From positions 2,542,001-2,606,000 of the forward strand of contig NZ_CP047048.1 of the NCBI RefSeq assembly GCF_030408555.1: DNA of 64,000 nucleotides. The letters are read 5' to 3'. Below the pieces are notes generated by a model. It was not told the DNA's origin. It did not search any database and saw only the letters and a list, made by a program, of their open reading frames with translations. Below, piece after piece: positions 2,954-47,006 of the stretch (its first letter is position 1; each line of letters opens with the position of its first letter). The position numbers and the translations under genes were made by a program. Source of the stretch: Corynebacterium aurimucosum (GTDB lineage: Bacteria; Actinomycetota; Actinomycetes; Mycobacteriales; Mycobacteriaceae).

Positions 2954-3006
2954 CGTCCTGGTGCGCCAGATCCCCAGATTTGGAACCCGAAACCTCCAGG
3001 GCGGAA

Positions 3007-4668
3007 TCAAGCGGTGGATGCGCCACGCTTGAATAGTTCGTTAAGTATTTCACGTGGGGTTGCGCCGCCGAGGATTTGTCGGGGTGTTTCGTTGAGCTCA
3101 TTTTGTACCCACGCGACATGTTCGGGTGTGACGGTGGCAAAGTCGGTGCCTTTTTTGTAGAACCGGCGCCTGATCTCGCCGTTGGTGTTCTCGTTGGTTG
3201 GTCTCTGCCACGGTGAGTGCGGGTCGCAGAAAAACACCTGGCAGCCGTCTTTGATCTGGACCTGTGCTGTGACAGCCATTTCTGCCCCTTGGTCCCATGT
3301 GATGGTTTTTAGCTGCTCGATGTTGAGGTCTTTGACCATGTCCTGCAAGGTTGCGACCACGGTTTGTGAACTGTGCTCATCGGGGAGGTGTCCAAGCAGG
3401 GTGTAGCGGCTGGTGCGCTCTACTAGGGTAATCAGTGCGCTTTTGCCGCCTTTACCAATGACAAGGTCGCCCTCCCAGTGCCCGGGGATAGCCCTGTCAT
3501 CAGCTTCCGGGTTGCGGTGGGTGATCTCAGCACCTTTGATCCAAGGGCGACCGGTTAACACGCCAGCGTTTCGGGCACGACTCTTGCGTGTTGCGCCGCC
3601 GCGGATAAGTACGTCTTTAGTCTTCATGACTTCTTCAAGCTCGGCTCGCAGGCTGCCTTTACCTTGAATGTATAAGGCACTGTAGATCGCTTCGTGGGAA
3701 ATACGCATGCTTTCATCATCGCTGAAAGCATGCTCAAGCCATGCACTAATGCGCCCAGGTGACCACCTGCGGGCAAGGCAATCGATCACTACACCCCGAA
3801 GCGTTGGGCTTTCATCGAGCTTGCGTAGTTTTGGCCGCACCATCCGACCAGCAGTAGAAACAGCAGCGTTGTGGGCGTTATACCGCAGCTGCTCTGTGCC
3901 GTCCTCATCGATAATCTTCCAACCATTACGGGTGATTTCACGGGCGACGACACTGTGGTGCCTATTTATTTTCTGTGCGATAGCACGTGCCGAATCACCG
4001 ACACGACATCCCGCTTCAATAGCAACACGGTCTTCAACAGTAAGCCTGCGACCACGCCCTACTAAGGCGTGTTTGTCGAATACGCCGCTAGGAAATCCAT
4101 CAATGGCTTGAGCTTTCATCGGTGCTGGCATAACAGTATCTTTACCCAGCTTCTTGCCGGTATCTGGCATAGACACCACCGCCTCATCAGGCGTTCGACG
4201 GTGTCGCTGCCGGCGTAATTCCGCATACCGTTGCTTCCTTATCCACTGATACACCGTGGAAGGATGCACACCGACCGCATCAGCCACCGTCTGACAGCTC
4301 TCACCAGCAAGCACTCGCTCCACGGCCTGGACACGTTCATCAGGTGACAAGCGGGCGCGTCTAGGCCGTACTTCGATTACACCAGCTTTCTTTAACCTAC
4401 TGTGAAGCACGCCAGTCGATAATCCAACAGTCTGTGCTGCTTGATTGATCGACATACCTGCACACACCAACCCAACGGCCTCACGGACAAACGGATCACG
4501 CAGACGACTCGCACGCCTGCCAGGAGGTTCGACACCTCTTACCCTCAACCATCCGTAAACAGTTTCAGGGCCCACACCGACATCACGCGCGACCAGGCTA
4601 ACTGCCTCGCCCGCAGCCACTCGCTCAACAGCAGCATCCTTAACATCCTTCGGAGTCCAACGCGTCAC
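3007..4668 (-). CDS. IS30-family transposase
   Basis: DDE transposase. The GTG at 4668 is preceded by GGGAGG five bases away and gives 553 residues; an upstream ATG at 4695 lacks such a site. The first 150 residues contain three successive helix-turn-helix units of Hin/Tc3 type (around 5-30, 60-85 and 115-145). Then come the IS30 helix-turn-helix with the RLTVEDRVAIEAG region and a C-terminal integrase core. Likely catalytic residues are D401 (EGDLVIG), D459 (WDQGAEM) and E493 (NENTNG); the last two are separated by 33 residues as in the family. The frame is intact, so the element may still be active. Confidence 0.92.
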   Translation of the reverse strand: MTRWTPKDVKDAAVERVAAGEAVSLVARDVGVGPETVYGWLRVRGVEPPGRRASRLRDPFVREAVGLVCAGMSINQAAQTVGLSTGVLHSRLKKAGVIEVRPRRARLSPDERVQAVERVLAGESCQTVADAVGVHPSTVYQWIRKQRYAELRRQRHRRTPDEAVVSMPDTGKKLGKDTVMPAPMKAQAIDGFPSGVFDKHALVGRGRRLTVEDRVAIEAGCRVGDSARAIAQKINRHHSVVAREITRNGWKIIDEDGTEQLRYNAHNAAVSTAGRMVRPKLRKLDESPTLRGVVIDCLARRWSPGRISAWLEHAFSDDESMRISHEAIYSALYIQGKGSLRAELEEVMKTKDVLIRGGATRKSRARNAGVLTGRPWIKGAEITHRNPEADDRAIPGHWEGDLVIGKGGKSALITLVERTSRYTLLGHLPDEHSSQTVVATLQDMVKDLNIEQLKTITWDQGAEMAVTAQVQIKDGCQVFFCDPHSPWQRPTNENTNGEIRRRFYKKGTDFATVTPEHVAWVQNELNETPRQILGGATPREILNELFKRGASTA

Positions 4669-4740
4669 AACTACCTCCCGGTCGAAGTGGCGCATTCACC
4701 CCTTGACAGCACGCAGCGTGCTGTCAACTAGGCCACAGTG

Positions 4741-4783
4741 CTTGACGACGCCGACCTGCGTGTTTCGGGTTCTAGGTCTGGGG
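4741..4783. repeat. Right terminal inverted repeat of the IS30 element
   Basis: These 43 bases run from CTTGACGACGCC to AGGTCTGGGG. They match, inverted, the left end at 2972-3010. They also match directly the right half of the palindrome at 36334-36376 (36 of 43 bases by eye). Confidence 0.7.
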
Positions 4784-26429: not shown

Positions 26430-26447
26430 GGCTTCGACCGGTCGTTT

Positions 26448-26500
26448 CGATCAATTAAGGCTCCAAAACCGCCTTGAGGTTTTGGAGCCTTAATTGATCG
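26448..26500. terminator. Perfect 23-bp stem, bidirectional terminator
   Basis: Arms 26448-26470 and 26478-26500 are perfectly complementary, beginning CGATCAATTAAGG and ending CCTTAATTGATCG, with the 7-base loop GCCTTGA. It lies between convergent lcpB and DUF5926 genes, and its AT-rich outer stem supplies a tail in both directions. Confidence 0.85.
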
Positions 26501-26537
26501 ATATGTACCTAAGCTTTGGGGCTAAAGCACCCAGGAA

Positions 26538-33822: not shown

Positions 33823-34974
33823 ATGACCAGAACGCGGCGCGCCACCATTGCCATGCTCTTCGTGGGCCTGGCAATTTTTTCTTGCCTCTACCCCACACAA
33901 GCCATGCTGCCCACCCTGGTGGAGGACATGGGCATGTCCCCCACGGAAGCCGCCATGACCATTTCGGCAGCCACCGGCGCACTGGCTATCTGCGTGATCC
34001 CCGTGTCCATCATCTCCGAGCACATCGGACGCGGAAAACTACTGCTCGTCTCCACCATCGCGGCCACGCTCATCGGCATGCTTGTTCCGCTAGCGCCCAA
34101 CCCGGAAATCCTCATCGCCACCCGCGCGCTCCAGGGAGCCGTCATCGCCGGCGCACCTGCTACCGCCATGGCCTGGATTTCGGAGGAGCTAGAAAGTTCC
34201 TACGTTGCCCGCGCCATGGGTTTGTACATCGCCGGCACCACCATCGGCGGGCTGACCGGCCGTCTCATCCCGACTGGGCTTCTCGAGCTCACGTCCTGGC
34301 GCTGGGCCCTGGCAGGCTCCAGCCTGGTCACACTCATCCTGGCCATCATCGCAGCGATCTTGCTGCCCTACCAACAGAATTTCACCCCGAAGGAGATCCA
34401 CTTCCGCTCGGAGCTGCGCGCCATCTTCCGCCACGCCCGGGACACCCGCCTGATCCCCTTATTCATCGTGGCCTTCGTGGCGATGGGCACCTTCGTGTCC
34501 CTCTATAACTTCTTGGCTTTTCGGCTCATCGACCATTTCCACCTCTCGCCGGGCTTGGCCGGCTTGGTCTTCCTCTTCTACCTCACCGGAACCTGGTCCT
34601 CGGCGCGCGCTGGCCGGCTGGTTACCCAAGTGGGCCACGCCAACACGCTTCTGCTCTCCTGCGCGCTCTTTGCCGTGGGCATCGCACTGTGCATGGGTTC
34701 GCTGATCCCCACCCTGCTGGGCATCGTGCTCTTCACCATCGGCTTCTTCGCGGCGCACTCCACTGCCTCGGGCTGGGTCGGACACATTGCCACCCACGAC
34801 CGCGCGGAGGCCTCCAGCCTCTATGTCTTCTTCTACTACCTGGGCAGTTCTATCCTGGGCGCGCTGGCCGGCGTGCTCTTTGACTCCCTGTCGTGGACCG
34901 GCTTCATCACCGTCTACGCAGCCCTCGCAGCGGGTATCGCGGCGCTGAGTTGGGCCGTGAGAAAAACCGGATAA
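33823..34974 (+). CDS. MFS transporter (YnfM-like)
   Basis: 383 residues with twelve expected membrane helices. The N-terminal half contains YPTQAMLPTLVEDMGMSPTEAAMTIS and the loop 2-3 motif SEHIGRGKLL (A-like), then GALQGAVIAGAPATAMAW around helix 4. The nearest family impression is the YnfM/arabinose-efflux-like group of drug or metabolite exporters. The substrate is unknown. It is controlled most likely by the divergent LysR regulator. The next gene starts 11 bases downstream. Confidence 0.85.
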   Translation: MTRTRRATIAMLFVGLAIFSCLYPTQAMLPTLVEDMGMSPTEAAMTISAATGALAICVIPVSIISEHIGRGKLLLVSTIAATLIGMLVPLAPNPEILIATRALQGAVIAGAPATAMAWISEELESSYVARAMGLYIAGTTIGGLTGRLIPTGLLELTSWRWALAGSSLVTLILAIIAAILLPYQQNFTPKEIHFRSELRAIFRHARDTRLIPLFIVAFVAMGTFVSLYNFLAFRLIDHFHLSPGLAGLVFLFYLTGTWSSARAGRLVTQVGHANTLLLSCALFAVGIALCMGSLIPTLLGIVLFTIGFFAAHSTASGWVGHIATHDRAEASSLYVFFYYLGSSILGALAGVLFDSLSWTGFITVYAALAAGIAALSWAVRKTG

Positions 34975-34985
34975 AATCGTGTTTT

Positions 34986-36278
34986 ATGGATAAGTGGTCA
35001 CCGCGTACATGGCACCGGAAGGCATCCCGCCCAGTCAGCCTGTGGATGATGGTCTTCCTCATCGCGGGCGCGACCCATACCTTTATTCCGAACTACCGCT
35101 GGGTCCTCATCCACCTCTTCACGCTCGGCATCCTCAGCAACAGCATCGTGGTGTGGTCCCAACATCTCACCGAGAAGTTCGTGCAGCTCAAAGTACCTCT
35201 TTCTGCCCGCCCCCGGCAGCTCGCACGCATTTATCTGCTGAACTCAGGCGTCGTTTTCACCCTCGTAGGTCAGATGCTCGTCGAAGCCTGGGAACGGCAC
35301 TGGCTACTTACGCAGGTGGGTGCCACACTTGTTGCGACTGCCGTGGCTTGGCACGGCGCGGCCCTCTTTGCCTTATGGCGCCGCGCGGAATCCAAACGAT
35401 TCCGCCCTGTCGTTGCTGCTTATGTGGCCTCCGCCTTCTTTCTTGCCGTGGGCGCCACCCTGGGCGCTTTCCTCGCGACGCATCCCTCCCATCCGCGCCT
35501 ACTCATCGCCCACGTGGCCGCCAATATTGGCGGCTTCGTGGGCCTTGCGGCAGCCGGCTCACTGACCATCTTGTTCCCCTCCATCTGGCGCACCAAAGGA
35601 ATCAATCCGCGCATGAGCTTAAGCTTCACCCTGCTGGGCCTGGGCGTCACCGCCACTGTGGTGGGCAGCATCTGGAATGTTCCGCAGGTAGGCCTCATCC
35701 TCTACTGCCTGGGCTGGGTGCTCAGCCTGCAGGGCTGGCTCGTCAACGCCCTCACCGTGGTGCGTGATCCGCGTGGACGCATTAGCTTCCCGGCACTTTC
35801 CGTGCTCTTTTCCTCTTTCTGGCTGCTCGGCGGTCTGATCTATTACACCACCCAGCACTTCTTCTCCAGCGAGCCAAAGATTCCCATGCTCGCGCTCGTC
35901 GTGGGCTTTGGCGCCCAACTGCTCATCGGCGTCATGGGCTATATGCTGCCGACCACTATGGGCGGCGGTCCCTCAGCGGTGCGGGCTGGCCTGCGCGAAT
36001 ACAACCGCTGGGGGCTCGGGCGATCCGTCTTCATTAACGGCGGACTCGCCCTGTGGCTGGCCACCGATAGTTCCCTCACCATGGTTGCCGCCTCCCTGCT
36101 CTGCCTTGGTTCCATGGCAGTCTTCCCCATCCTCACCGCCCGCGCGGTCAAGGCCCAGAAAGCCGTGCTGTTCAAGAAGGCCGAAGGCCCAGCCCCGACG
36201 AGCACCACGGATTGGGACCAGGCCTGGGTGGCCCTTGCAGTGCTCATCATCCTCGGCGGACTCAGCCTCATCCTGTAG
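34986..36278 (+). CDS. Polytopic membrane protein of unknown function (heme-copper-oxidase/NnrS-like features)
   Basis: 430 residues from the ATG at 34986 (MDKWSPRTWH), with about twelve hydrophobic segments. Conserved-looking histidines occur in membrane segments: ATHTFIPNYRWVLIHLFTLG, VVWSQHLTEKF, LIAHVAANIGG and the GYMLPTTMGGGPSAVRAG loop. This pattern recalls NnrS and heme-copper oxidase subunit I relatives, but I cannot assign it firmly. It begins 11 bases after the MFS gene and could be co-transcribed with it. A 96-bp palindrome starts three bases after the stop. Confidence 0.6.
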   Translation: MDKWSPRTWHRKASRPVSLWMMVFLIAGATHTFIPNYRWVLIHLFTLGILSNSIVVWSQHLTEKFVQLKVPLSARPRQLARIYLLNSGVVFTLVGQMLVEAWERHWLLTQVGATLVATAVAWHGAALFALWRRAESKRFRPVVAAYVASAFFLAVGATLGAFLATHPSHPRLLIAHVAANIGGFVGLAAAGSLTILFPSIWRTKGINPRMSLSFTLLGLGVTATVVGSIWNVPQVGLILYCLGWVLSLQGWLVNALTVVRDPRGRISFPALSVLFSSFWLLGGLIYYTTQHFFSSEPKIPMLALVVGFGAQLLIGVMGYMLPTTMGGGPSAVRAGLREYNRWGLGRSVFINGGLALWLATDSSLTMVAASLLCLGSMAVFPILTARAVKAQKAVLFKKAEGPAPTSTTDWDQAWVALAVLIILGGLSLIL

Positions 36279-36280
36279 AT

Positions 36281-36376
36281 CCCCAGACCTCGATCCCGCA
36301 ACCTCCTGGTGAGGGGTGGGACGTCGGCAAGCGCTTGGCGACGCCCACCTGCAGGTTGCGGGTTTCAGGTCTGGGG
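36281..36376. mobile_element. 96-bp palindromic element with IS30-type ends (MITE-like)
   Basis: The sequence runs from CCCCAGACCT to AGGTCTGGGG and is close to symmetrical over its full length, with CAAGCGCTTG at the centre. Its right 43 bases match the right end of the IS30 element at 4741-4783 (36 of 43 by eye) and its left end matches the IS left end (23 of 29). It has no coding capacity. It lies between convergent genes and can serve as a terminator hairpin. I read it as a non-autonomous derivative of the IS; the alternative is a resident palindrome that IS30 elements use as target. Confidence 0.65.
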
Positions 36377-36403
36377 CCTTGCAAACAGGAAGGCAGAGAG
36401 AAG

Positions 36404-37840
36404 CTAGGGCTCGAGGGGGGACACTCCCGGCGCGCCATCGGTCATCCACTCGCGGACGGCGTGGGTAGCGCGCACATCGCCCGCGTTGTAGCGCAGAATC
36501 TGCGCCCGCGCGGCGGCATCCCCGGCAACGGCGGCGCGGCGGGCATTGACGGATTCCTCACCATCAAACTCTTCCGGCCATTCGAAACCCGCAACGGGGG
36601 CCACGGTCTTCAGGCCCAGCCCCGCAGTGCCAGCGAAACTGCGCTTGACGTGGGCGAACATATCCACCCATTCTTCCGAGGAGATGAACTCTTCCACCTC
36701 CTGGAGACTGGGCTTAGAAAAACGTTGGGCGGATCTGCGCATCCAATGGTTCTCACCATGGGCGGAGTAGCAGTAGGCTGCGAAGGTCTTTCCTGCCTCA
36801 TGTGCCTCAGCGCGCACCCGCATGAGCCAGTCCCAGAACTCAGCGAAATTCTCCGCTTCCGCGCGGCCACCGAGCAGTTCCCACGTCACGAAGGAATGGT
36901 ATTCACCGTCCAGAAGCGCACCCCACAGGTAGGCTCCCTGATCCAGGTAGGCCTCCATATCCACATCAACCTCGACATCCGCGCGGGGAGCGCTGACCCG
37001 GTCACGGCGCAACAGTGGGACGCCTTCACGCCAGGCAGCGGCAAGGGCGGAAGGGGCGCCGAGGGAGGCGTCGATAAGCCCCTGCACTGTCGTGATACCG
37101 CGCTCACGATAGGGCTTCGCGCGGTCGCCCGGCAGGAAGAGCGAGATGTCATCGCGGGCTTCCAGCTCCTCCCGGCACAAAGGCCAAAAGCGGCAGGAGG
37201 CGCACTCTTTAACGCGGCGTGGGCCCGCTGGTAGTGGCTGCGCCAACGCCTCATCGATGGCAAAACGCGAGGTATCCGTAACAAAAGCTTGGCTGCGATC
37301 CTGGCCAATCGCAGCGCCCCTGCCGGAATTCAGGCCTACTTCTTCCAAGCCCCGCGCGGCCAAGGCCAACCGGTAGCCATCGACGGCATGGTGCCGAATC
37401 TTGTACTTTGCCGGTAGCGGCTCACTCAACCCCAAACGATGGGTAGGCACAACCAGCGTACGCGAGCTCTCGTGCGGGCGGGCCACGCGGTGATCAGAAA
37501 CGATGACAGGACTGTATTTGTCCCCATCCCGCACTAGGAGCTCCACGCGCACCATCCACTCGGAAGTAGAAAACACAGCGTTCGTAATGTGCGTATAGCC
37601 ATGAACAAGTGCTTCCAGTGTGGCAAGCGCCCGCTCGAAATCATCCCCCTCCAGGTCAATCCGGCGGAAACGCCCCGGTCCCTTCTTGGGAAGGCGGCTG
37701 AGCGCAGCATCGATGGCGGCCGCGTGGCGCTCCGCGCGGGCTTGGCTCACTGCGGTGCGTGGGATCTCGGGATGCGCGCGGCGCTGCACTAAGCGATAAC
37801 GGCAGCCCACAAGATCCGTGGCAACGAGCACATCCTTCAC
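36404..37840 (-). CDS. TM0106-family RecB-like nuclease
   Basis: 478 residues. The N-terminal half contains a RecB/Cas4-like nuclease core and a cysteine group typical of the family (CASCRFWPLCREEL, about 207-220). The C-terminal half is an RNase H-like region with TFAAYCYSAHGENHWMRR and the closing RYNAGDVRATHAVREWM (DVRA with a catalytic-type Asp). The protein is probably a DNA repair or processing nuclease; there is no experimental function. CRISPR genes are absent from the window, so a Cas4 role is unlikely. Confidence 0.8.
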   Translation of the reverse strand: MKDVLVATDLVGCRYRLVQRRAHPEIPRTAVSQARAERHAAAIDAALSRLPKKGPGRFRRIDLEGDDFERALATLEALVHGYTHITNAVFSTSEWMVRVELLVRDGDKYSPVIVSDHRVARPHESSRTLVVPTHRLGLSEPLPAKYKIRHHAVDGYRLALAARGLEEVGLNSGRGAAIGQDRSQAFVTDTSRFAIDEALAQPLPAGPRRVKECASCRFWPLCREELEARDDISLFLPGDRAKPYRERGITTVQGLIDASLGAPSALAAAWREGVPLLRRDRVSAPRADVEVDVDMEAYLDQGAYLWGALLDGEYHSFVTWELLGGRAEAENFAEFWDWLMRVRAEAHEAGKTFAAYCYSAHGENHWMRRSAQRFSKPSLQEVEEFISSEEWVDMFAHVKRSFAGTAGLGLKTVAPVAGFEWPEEFDGEESVNARRAAVAGDAAARAQILRYNAGDVRATHAVREWMTDGAPGVSPLEP

Positions 37841-46454: not shown

Positions 46455-46816
46455 ATAGATAAACGAAAATAACATCGCCTCTGAACAGTGGCTATGGCCT
46501 GAACCCTGGAAAGCAGTTTGGTGCTTGATGTTCTCAACTTCGGGGTTGTGGGGTTGTGTCTTAGATGGCAGGGTAAGCGTTGTTGTTGAGGACGGCTCGG
46601 CCGCTTTCGGCGGGGTTTTGGTGGAAGAGCCCGGGCCTGTGCTTGGCTACTTGGGCTTGGTTGTTGCGTGTTTTACAAGTGCAGACGTGGAAGTACATAC
46701 CTGCAGCGTGACTGATCAGCAGACGCGGGCCTGTACTTGGCTGCGACCAGCGGGTCTGCACTTTCGGGTCTGCACTTTCGGGTTGTGGGGGACGGTGAAC
46801 ACCGCAAAACGAAAAG
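46455..46816. other. Intergenic region with short repeats downstream of rrn
   Basis: About 360 bases between the pseudouridine synthase gene and the rRNA terminator. On the minus strand it contains four related copies of AAGYRCAGRCCCG (near 46767-46780, 46752-46765, 46728-46740 and 46632-46644) and one inverted AAGTGCAGAC (46677-46686). Short open frames exist but encode only translated repeat sequence, so I call no gene. Function unknown. Confidence 0.55.
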
Positions 46817-46856
46817 AGAGAGACCGTTGAAACAGTAGTGTTTCAACGGTCTCTCT
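46817..46856 (-). terminator. rRNA operon terminator
   Basis: Perfect 18-base arms: AGAGAGACCGTTGAAACA (46817-46834) and its complement (46839-46856), loop GTAG. On the minus strand it is followed by CTTTTCGTTTT. It lies about 30 bases beyond 5S rRNA. Confidence 0.92.
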
Positions 46857-46885: not shown

Positions 46886-47006
46886 GGTGTCGGCGGTTTC
46901 TTACTCTCCCACAACCTCCCGGTTGCAGTACCATCAGCGTTAGCAGGCTTAGCTTCCGGGTTCGGAATGGGTCCGGGCGTTTCCCTGCTGCTATAGGCCA
47001 CCGACA
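46886..47006 (-). rRNA. rrf: 5S ribosomal RNA
   Basis: About 121 bases. On the minus strand it contains the conserved CCCATTCCGAACCCGGAAG segment (loop B/C region), GGTACTGCAACCGGGAGGTT and complementary ends (TCGGTGGCC near the 5' end and CCGCCGACACC at the 3' end). It is the last gene of the operon; ends are estimated. Confidence 0.93.

Follow-up and report, generated by a model that had tools for sequence, protein, structure and literature searches.

A dispersed palindrome family of Corynebacterium, probably linked to a predicted nuclease gene and targeted by an IS1513-group insertion sequence

Results

The palindrome and its surroundings

We analysed a stretch of 64,000 nucleotides of the Corynebacterium aurimucosum chromosome (hereafter the window), in which a 96-bp palindrome separates two convergent open reading frames (ORFs). 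Comparison with other Corynebacterium genomes suggests that this palindrome belongs to a dispersed family that is probably linked to a predicted nuclease gene and that serves as a landing site for insertion sequences (ISs) of the IS1513 group, one of which lies elsewhere in the window. Genomes and loci are denoted below by G and L numbers; the genome of the window is G000.

34893..36278, + strand: 461-aa ORF, its stop 2 nt ahead of the palindrome; present in G012 too
36281..36376, no strand: 96-bp palindrome of type A (arms begin CCCCAGACCT), from inverted-repeat search, folding and orthologous copies
36404..37840, − strand: 478-aa convergent ORF, its stop 27 nt past the palindrome; present in G012 too

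The inverted repeat spans exactly 36281-36376 and lies between the two ORFs. Its 31-nt arms are 84% complementary, and as a single strand it folds at −66.4 kcal/mol compared with a mean of −40.4 for shuffled sequences (z −7.5; 0 of 200 shuffles equally stable). A preliminary description of the window had drawn both the palindrome and its position between convergent genes correctly. An orthologous palindrome occupies the same place in five genomes (G012, G126, G192, G124 and G189), its core being reversed in G189. An Rfam search of window positions 36000-36700 returned nothing above the gathering score (the best match reached 21.2 bits, with 197 required). Within 36200-36450 no stem is followed by a T-run, so that of the two marks of an intrinsic terminator, a GC-rich stem and a T-run, the stem alone is present, and the suggestion of the preliminary description that the palindrome can act as a terminator is weak at this site. 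Target duplications at the palindrome flanks, which the preliminary description had recommended looking for, are absent here and at a second copy, L002.

The insertion sequence and its limits

3000..4713, − strand: IS30-family element, with corrected limits (seven identical 1714-bp copies, 3-bp duplications, NCBIfam, plasmid match)
3007..4695, − strand: transposase ORF of 562 aa (ORF list and NCBIfam match)
2972..2999, no strand: left part of a resident palindrome of type A into which the IS has inserted; it ends with the duplicated CAG
4714..4783, no strand: right part of the same palindrome; the first 3 bases are the duplicated CAG

The genome contains seven complete copies of the IS and one copy in two pieces. 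All seven complete copies are letter-identical over exactly 1714 bp, and 3-bp duplications border all eight (CAG, CAG, CTG, CTG, CTG, CTT, GGC, CAG). The IS therefore runs from 3000 to 4713, and all sequence that it seemed to share with the palindrome lies outside it. The transposase matches the NCBIfam IS30 model NF033563 at 220.1 bits (cut-off 80), the inner terminal repeat measures 20 nt at 90% identity, and the element is 96% identical to an IS1513-annotated stretch of C. striatum plasmid pTP10 (match over positions 1-1714). Its IS30 transposase, a target duplication of the 2-3 bp class and terminal repeats of the ~20-26 bp class place it in the IS30 family, and the element itself is no different from known IS1513/IS30 elements; its target habit is what we describe here.

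The preliminary description had set the IS at 2972-4783 and had reported a likeness between the palindrome and the IS ends, including a 43-base match reaching inside one end. The likeness to 2972-2999 and 4714-4783 is real, but both stretches lie outside the IS, and the matched bases are flank. Its proposal of a miniature inverted-repeat transposable element (MITE) mobilised by the IS30 transposase was wrong because the limits had been misdrawn: the arms are not IS ends, they vary among IS copies, and the true terminal repeats (GGCGGAATCAAG... and CGTGCTGTCAAG...) are absent from 36281-36376. The right IS tip and its flank also form a 12-bp inverted repeat (window 4703-4727), and the resident palindrome may hold the scar of an earlier IS insertion.

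The insertion sequence prefers palindromes

When the two flanks of each IS copy in this genome were joined, they made a large palindrome at seven of the eight copies, the exception being L012. Type A palindromes host L006, L008 and L009, and type B palindromes (arms AAAAGTGCAGACC...) host L007, L010, L011 and L013/14. By a stricter flank-to-flank score six of the eight reach 12, with L011 at 9. The related genome G012 carries intact palindromes at its counterparts of L009, L007 and L010, which bears out the other proposal of the preliminary description, namely that the IS integrates into resident palindromes; the G012 counterpart of L012 is a clean empty site. No IS was found in G012 by a genus-wide search that scored two candidates per genome and whose counts are thus lower bounds. 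At L168 of G012, a stretch of ~24 nt within a palindrome resembles the right IS end, which we read as a putative scar.

Relatives of the IS, 74-82% identical over the aligned part, were found in four other species, where seven of eight sites lie in palindromes of unrelated sequence (G139, G260 and G255 contribute two sites each, and G061 one of its two), all seven with a 3-bp duplication. In G186 the IS copy interrupts a palindrome of type A, and G192 has two one-sided IS flanks that resemble type B; the 96%-identical copies of G130 (two), G212 and G005 lie outside palindromes. Among all sites with two flanks, 14 of 21 score at least 12. For comparison, the median score of 420 mismatched flank pairs is 7; a score of 12 is reached by 28, of which 27 pair related palindromes and a single one, L007 with L258, includes a site that is not palindromic. 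We conclude that the IS inserts into resident palindromes with a strong, though not absolute, preference.

Because related IS elements occupy palindromes that share no sequence, the target of the IS1513 group looks like a palindromic form or structure rather than one sequence. The IS would insert between the arms or at their foot with a 3-bp duplication, apparently recognising the palindromic structure, and these elements offer a clean test case for the choice of DNA shape by an IS30 transposase. Members of the IS3, IS110, IS4, IS256 and IS5 families have been described within repetitive extragenic palindromic (REP) sequences (Tobes and Pareja 2006, PMC1525189). The two situations share an IS lying within repeated extragenic palindromes with a short duplication, and differ in that the element here is of the IS30 family and that its relatives use palindromes of unrelated sequence.

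One non-palindromic IS site (L047 in G000, L367 in G012) has flanks that are 99.8-99.9% identical between the two genomes, compared with ~90% elsewhere, indicating an apparent recent exchange between them.

Distribution of the palindrome family

A covariance model (R2), built from 29 palindromes of four genomes, finds matches at E <= 1e-4 in 16 of 242 Corynebacterium genomes; at most 17 candidates per genome were scored, and the counts are lower bounds. Genome G011 has palindromes at at least 21 distinct places. Three intact palindromes (window 36281, window 46677 and contig place 1147514) and seven IS-split ones occur in the genome of the window, at odds with the single fixed copy that the preliminary description had named as the mark of a plain terminator. 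Each arm carries two tandem copies of a ~14-bp motif (three in L152, L154 and L161). The two arms change together: 93.1% of cells are paired as opposed to 71.5 in shuffles, there are 131 double changes against 41.5, and the covariation score is 0.673 against 0.260 when shuffled and at most 0.109 when slid. Occupancy differs between genomes. The palindromes of G012 at L029 and L139 have no counterpart in G000; conversely, for those that G000 carries at the window IS site, L008 and L013/14, R2 returns no match in the corresponding stretches of G012.

In G011 two palindromes of different type and opposite orientation (L149 and L150) stand ~100 bp apart and make a composite of ~300 bp; such a composite occurs at two places that are 78% alike, and resembles a mosaic element.

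The linked gene

Palindromes also occur in pairs ~1.05-1.2 kb apart that enclose an ORF of ~300 aa. The ORF stops 2 nt from a palindrome in L166, L208, L209, L210 and L211, overlaps it by 6 nt in L151, and is ~130 nt from it in L212, where the gap includes a run of N. A search with eight such proteins separated two groups: ten loci scoring 480-577 bits, together with two contig-end pieces (G101 and G190), and the remaining listed matches, all at or below 240 bits. The former constitute a subfamily of 12 loci, spread over 11 genomes. Ten of these genomes belong to the 16 palindrome-positive ones (Fisher p 5e-13, kinship ignored); in the remaining one, G079, a single weak palindrome (28.8 bits) adjoins the gene. 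Palindromes stand beside the gene at all 12 loci and on both sides at nine; these nine include G186, whose second palindrome scores a weak 19.8 bits, and G000, where the IS has split the palindromes. Palindrome types also track gene clades, judging from identities that leave out G036 and G238, where orientations are mixed: G126 has an A-type gene with A-type palindromes and a B-type gene with B-type palindromes, which are 94% and 97% alike within types and 52-55% between them. In G000 the linked gene (L045, 3974-4846) lies between two IS-split palindromes, carries an in-frame TGA near its start and may be inactive.

In the predicted protein architecture, an AbiEi-antitoxin-like DNA-binding part is fused to a nuclease domain resembling Vsr and I-Bth0305I. 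In the predicted structure the catalytic domain adopts the fold expected of a Vsr-like nuclease, and the putative catalytic residues D228 and D240 are invariant among 48 sequences, with E238 and K244 nearly so. An earlier structure model, made from 8 sequences, was poor (pLDDT 51) and was set aside. PADLOC models for AbiEi match two of four nuclease proteins; NCBIfam offered no meaningful family for the four, the best relevant match in a sequence search of the Protein Data Bank (3hrl, E 0.23) was not significant, and no relatives were found in plasmid and phage collections at E <= 1e-5. The protein differs from the Vsr-like homing endonuclease I-Bth0305I, to which it is 18% identical, in its fused AbiEi-like part and flanking palindromes, and from AbiEi antitoxins and DUF559 proteins in carrying a predicted nuclease domain.

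Some relative of the gene is present in 159 of the 242 genomes (E <= 1e-12). We inspected 25 distant genes, a non-random set of the best-scoring ones and five paralogues; L281, L287 and the G190 locus at a contig end do not enter this count. Fifteen of these 25 adjoin, on one side or the other, an inverted repeat of 76-121 bp scoring at least 14, with the qualification that the palindrome is almost the same at four loci of the set (L289, L296, L301 and L304). The tandem motif differs from lineage to lineage, and R2 matches none of these palindromes. At ordinary gene ends of G154 and G174 about 1% of windows contain such a repeat, namely 8 of 596 downstream, where nuclease palindromes account for four, and 2 of 561 upstream; in far windows of the distant-gene loci themselves 1 of 173 reaches 14. 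One of the IS relatives of G255 is seated in a palindrome that adjoins such a distant gene.

Discussion

Comparison of the genomes reveals a palindrome family with covarying arms that is linked to a gene subfamily, varies in presence at orthologous sites and is targeted by IS1513-group elements. We think it probable that 36281-36376 is a resident member of this dispersed ~95-bp family, linked to the nuclease gene and used as an IS target. The autonomous-looking form is the ~300-aa gene with a palindrome on each side and its stop codon 2 nt from one of them. Its N-terminal AbiEi-like part would recognise the arm motif and the nuclease would act at the palindrome or its hairpin, whereby palindromes would be kept and copied to new sites during repair. 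This mechanism we propose tentatively, as somewhat less likely to hold than to fail. With a little less confidence still, the whole may represent a new class of repeat, selfish or domesticated, in which motif-array palindromes are copied by a homing-endonuclease-like enzyme through its AbiEi-type domain in lineage-specific motif-enzyme pairs, with an IS30 group exploiting the hairpin or cruciform form. If the nuclease does maintain or copy palindromes, this would be a REPIN-like system built on a homing-endonuclease fold in place of a transposase, and would reveal what a DUF559/AbiEi-type family, represented in 159 of the 242 Corynebacterium genomes, does. In the mostly open-access literature consulted, we found no report linking such palindromes to this type of nuclease.

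Several observations weigh against our interpretation. Two further measures of arm covariation show no excess, namely covarying pairs (13 compared with 11.1 shuffled, 36 of 500 shuffles as high) and pair types (30 compared with 31.0, 402 of 500 as high). Among the present/absent pairs compared, no palindrome insertion has a clean target duplication, and the best pair (L139 against G000) resembles a deletion between short direct repeats as much as an insertion. Ten of the 25 distant genes have no palindrome by the criterion applied to the others. No further copy of the gene-side palindrome was found in 400 kb each of G154 and G174, so that dispersal is not general. No subfamily gene was found in six palindrome-positive genomes (G124, G125, G159, G160, G169 and G189), the tests of association between gene and palindrome ignore phylogeny, and the genes of G000 and G186 contain an in-frame TGA and TAA, respectively. 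Finally, Foldseek returned no match to the protein at E <= 0.001.

The main rival explanation gives the palindromes a host role, as transcription terminators or processing signals that recombination and gene conversion have spread; the nuclease gene would simply borrow one of them for its own operator or terminator, in the manner of an AbiEi-like autoregulator. The position of the window palindrome fits, as do the gene settings of 43 palindrome loci, of which 21 are convergent and 15 tandem; the rest comprise 4 divergent loci, 2 that fall within an ORF and 1 that is undecided (from a rough ORF caller and with orthologues counted repeatedly). Type B and the G011 types are bordered by AAAA and TTTT, orthologous palindromes persist in six species, and in the two distant genomes G154 and G174 the palindrome was seen at the gene only. 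Against this, the window copy has no T-run, and terminators need neither a constant length of ~95 bp, nor tandem motifs, nor the two-sided flanking of one gene subfamily. The surroundings of the second intact palindrome of the window also bear on the question.

46677..46777, no strand: second intact palindrome, of type B, at a distance of 110 bp past the 5S rRNA gene
46888-47005, − strand: 5S rRNA gene (Rfam)

A separate long hairpin at 46817-46856, with a T-run on its 5S side, already stands between this gene and the palindrome; as an ordinary rRNA terminator it leaves the type B palindrome without need there. We regard the terminator explanation as rather unlikely, if the most serious of those considered.

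REP doublets forming hairpins (REPINs) mobilised by a Y1 transposase (REP-associated tyrosine transposase, RAYT) offer a further comparison. In Pseudomonas and enterobacteria, REPIN-RAYT systems comprise intergenic hairpin-forming palindromes of ~100 bp, dispersed in hundreds of copies, and a Y1 transposase gene bordered by palindromes of its own. The family described here shares with them a dispersed, extragenic ~95-bp hairpin of two inverted palindromic halves (2 of 43 were called inside ORFs by the rough caller), a sequence specific to the species and a gene flanked by its own palindromes. However, the linked gene encodes a predicted AbiEi-Vsr-like nuclease, of another fold, and the highest copy count is at least 21 (G011) rather than hundreds. 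The Y1 domain PF01797 was found in five of the 242 genomes, which do not overlap with the 16 that are palindrome-positive, and we rejected membership of the REPIN-RAYT group as highly improbable. Least probable of all, and already refuted by the IS limits, is a MITE built from the ends of the IS30 element: its sole support is the likeness of the palindrome to the flanks of the window IS copy, inside which the identical 1714-bp copies end, whereas the palindrome ends are not homologous to the IS terminal inverted repeats and lack a target duplication, the same or related ISs are carried by type B and unrelated palindromes, and G012 has palindromes yet no IS among the candidates scored.

Some further features were noted along the way. 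A strong inverted repeat at window positions 26447-26501 (score 24) is unlike the palindrome family and is probably a terminator. At L046 of G000, a truncated IS3-type copy and its direct 787-bp repeat enclose a split palindrome of type B, near the end of an rRNA operon. In G160, G186 and G238 (L214, L215 and L213), palindromes surround an operon that encodes a secreted-looking peptide of 99 aa and a membrane protein of 661 aa, with an ABC ATPase as well in L214 and L215; the arrangement recalls bacteriocins of the lactococcin 972 type.
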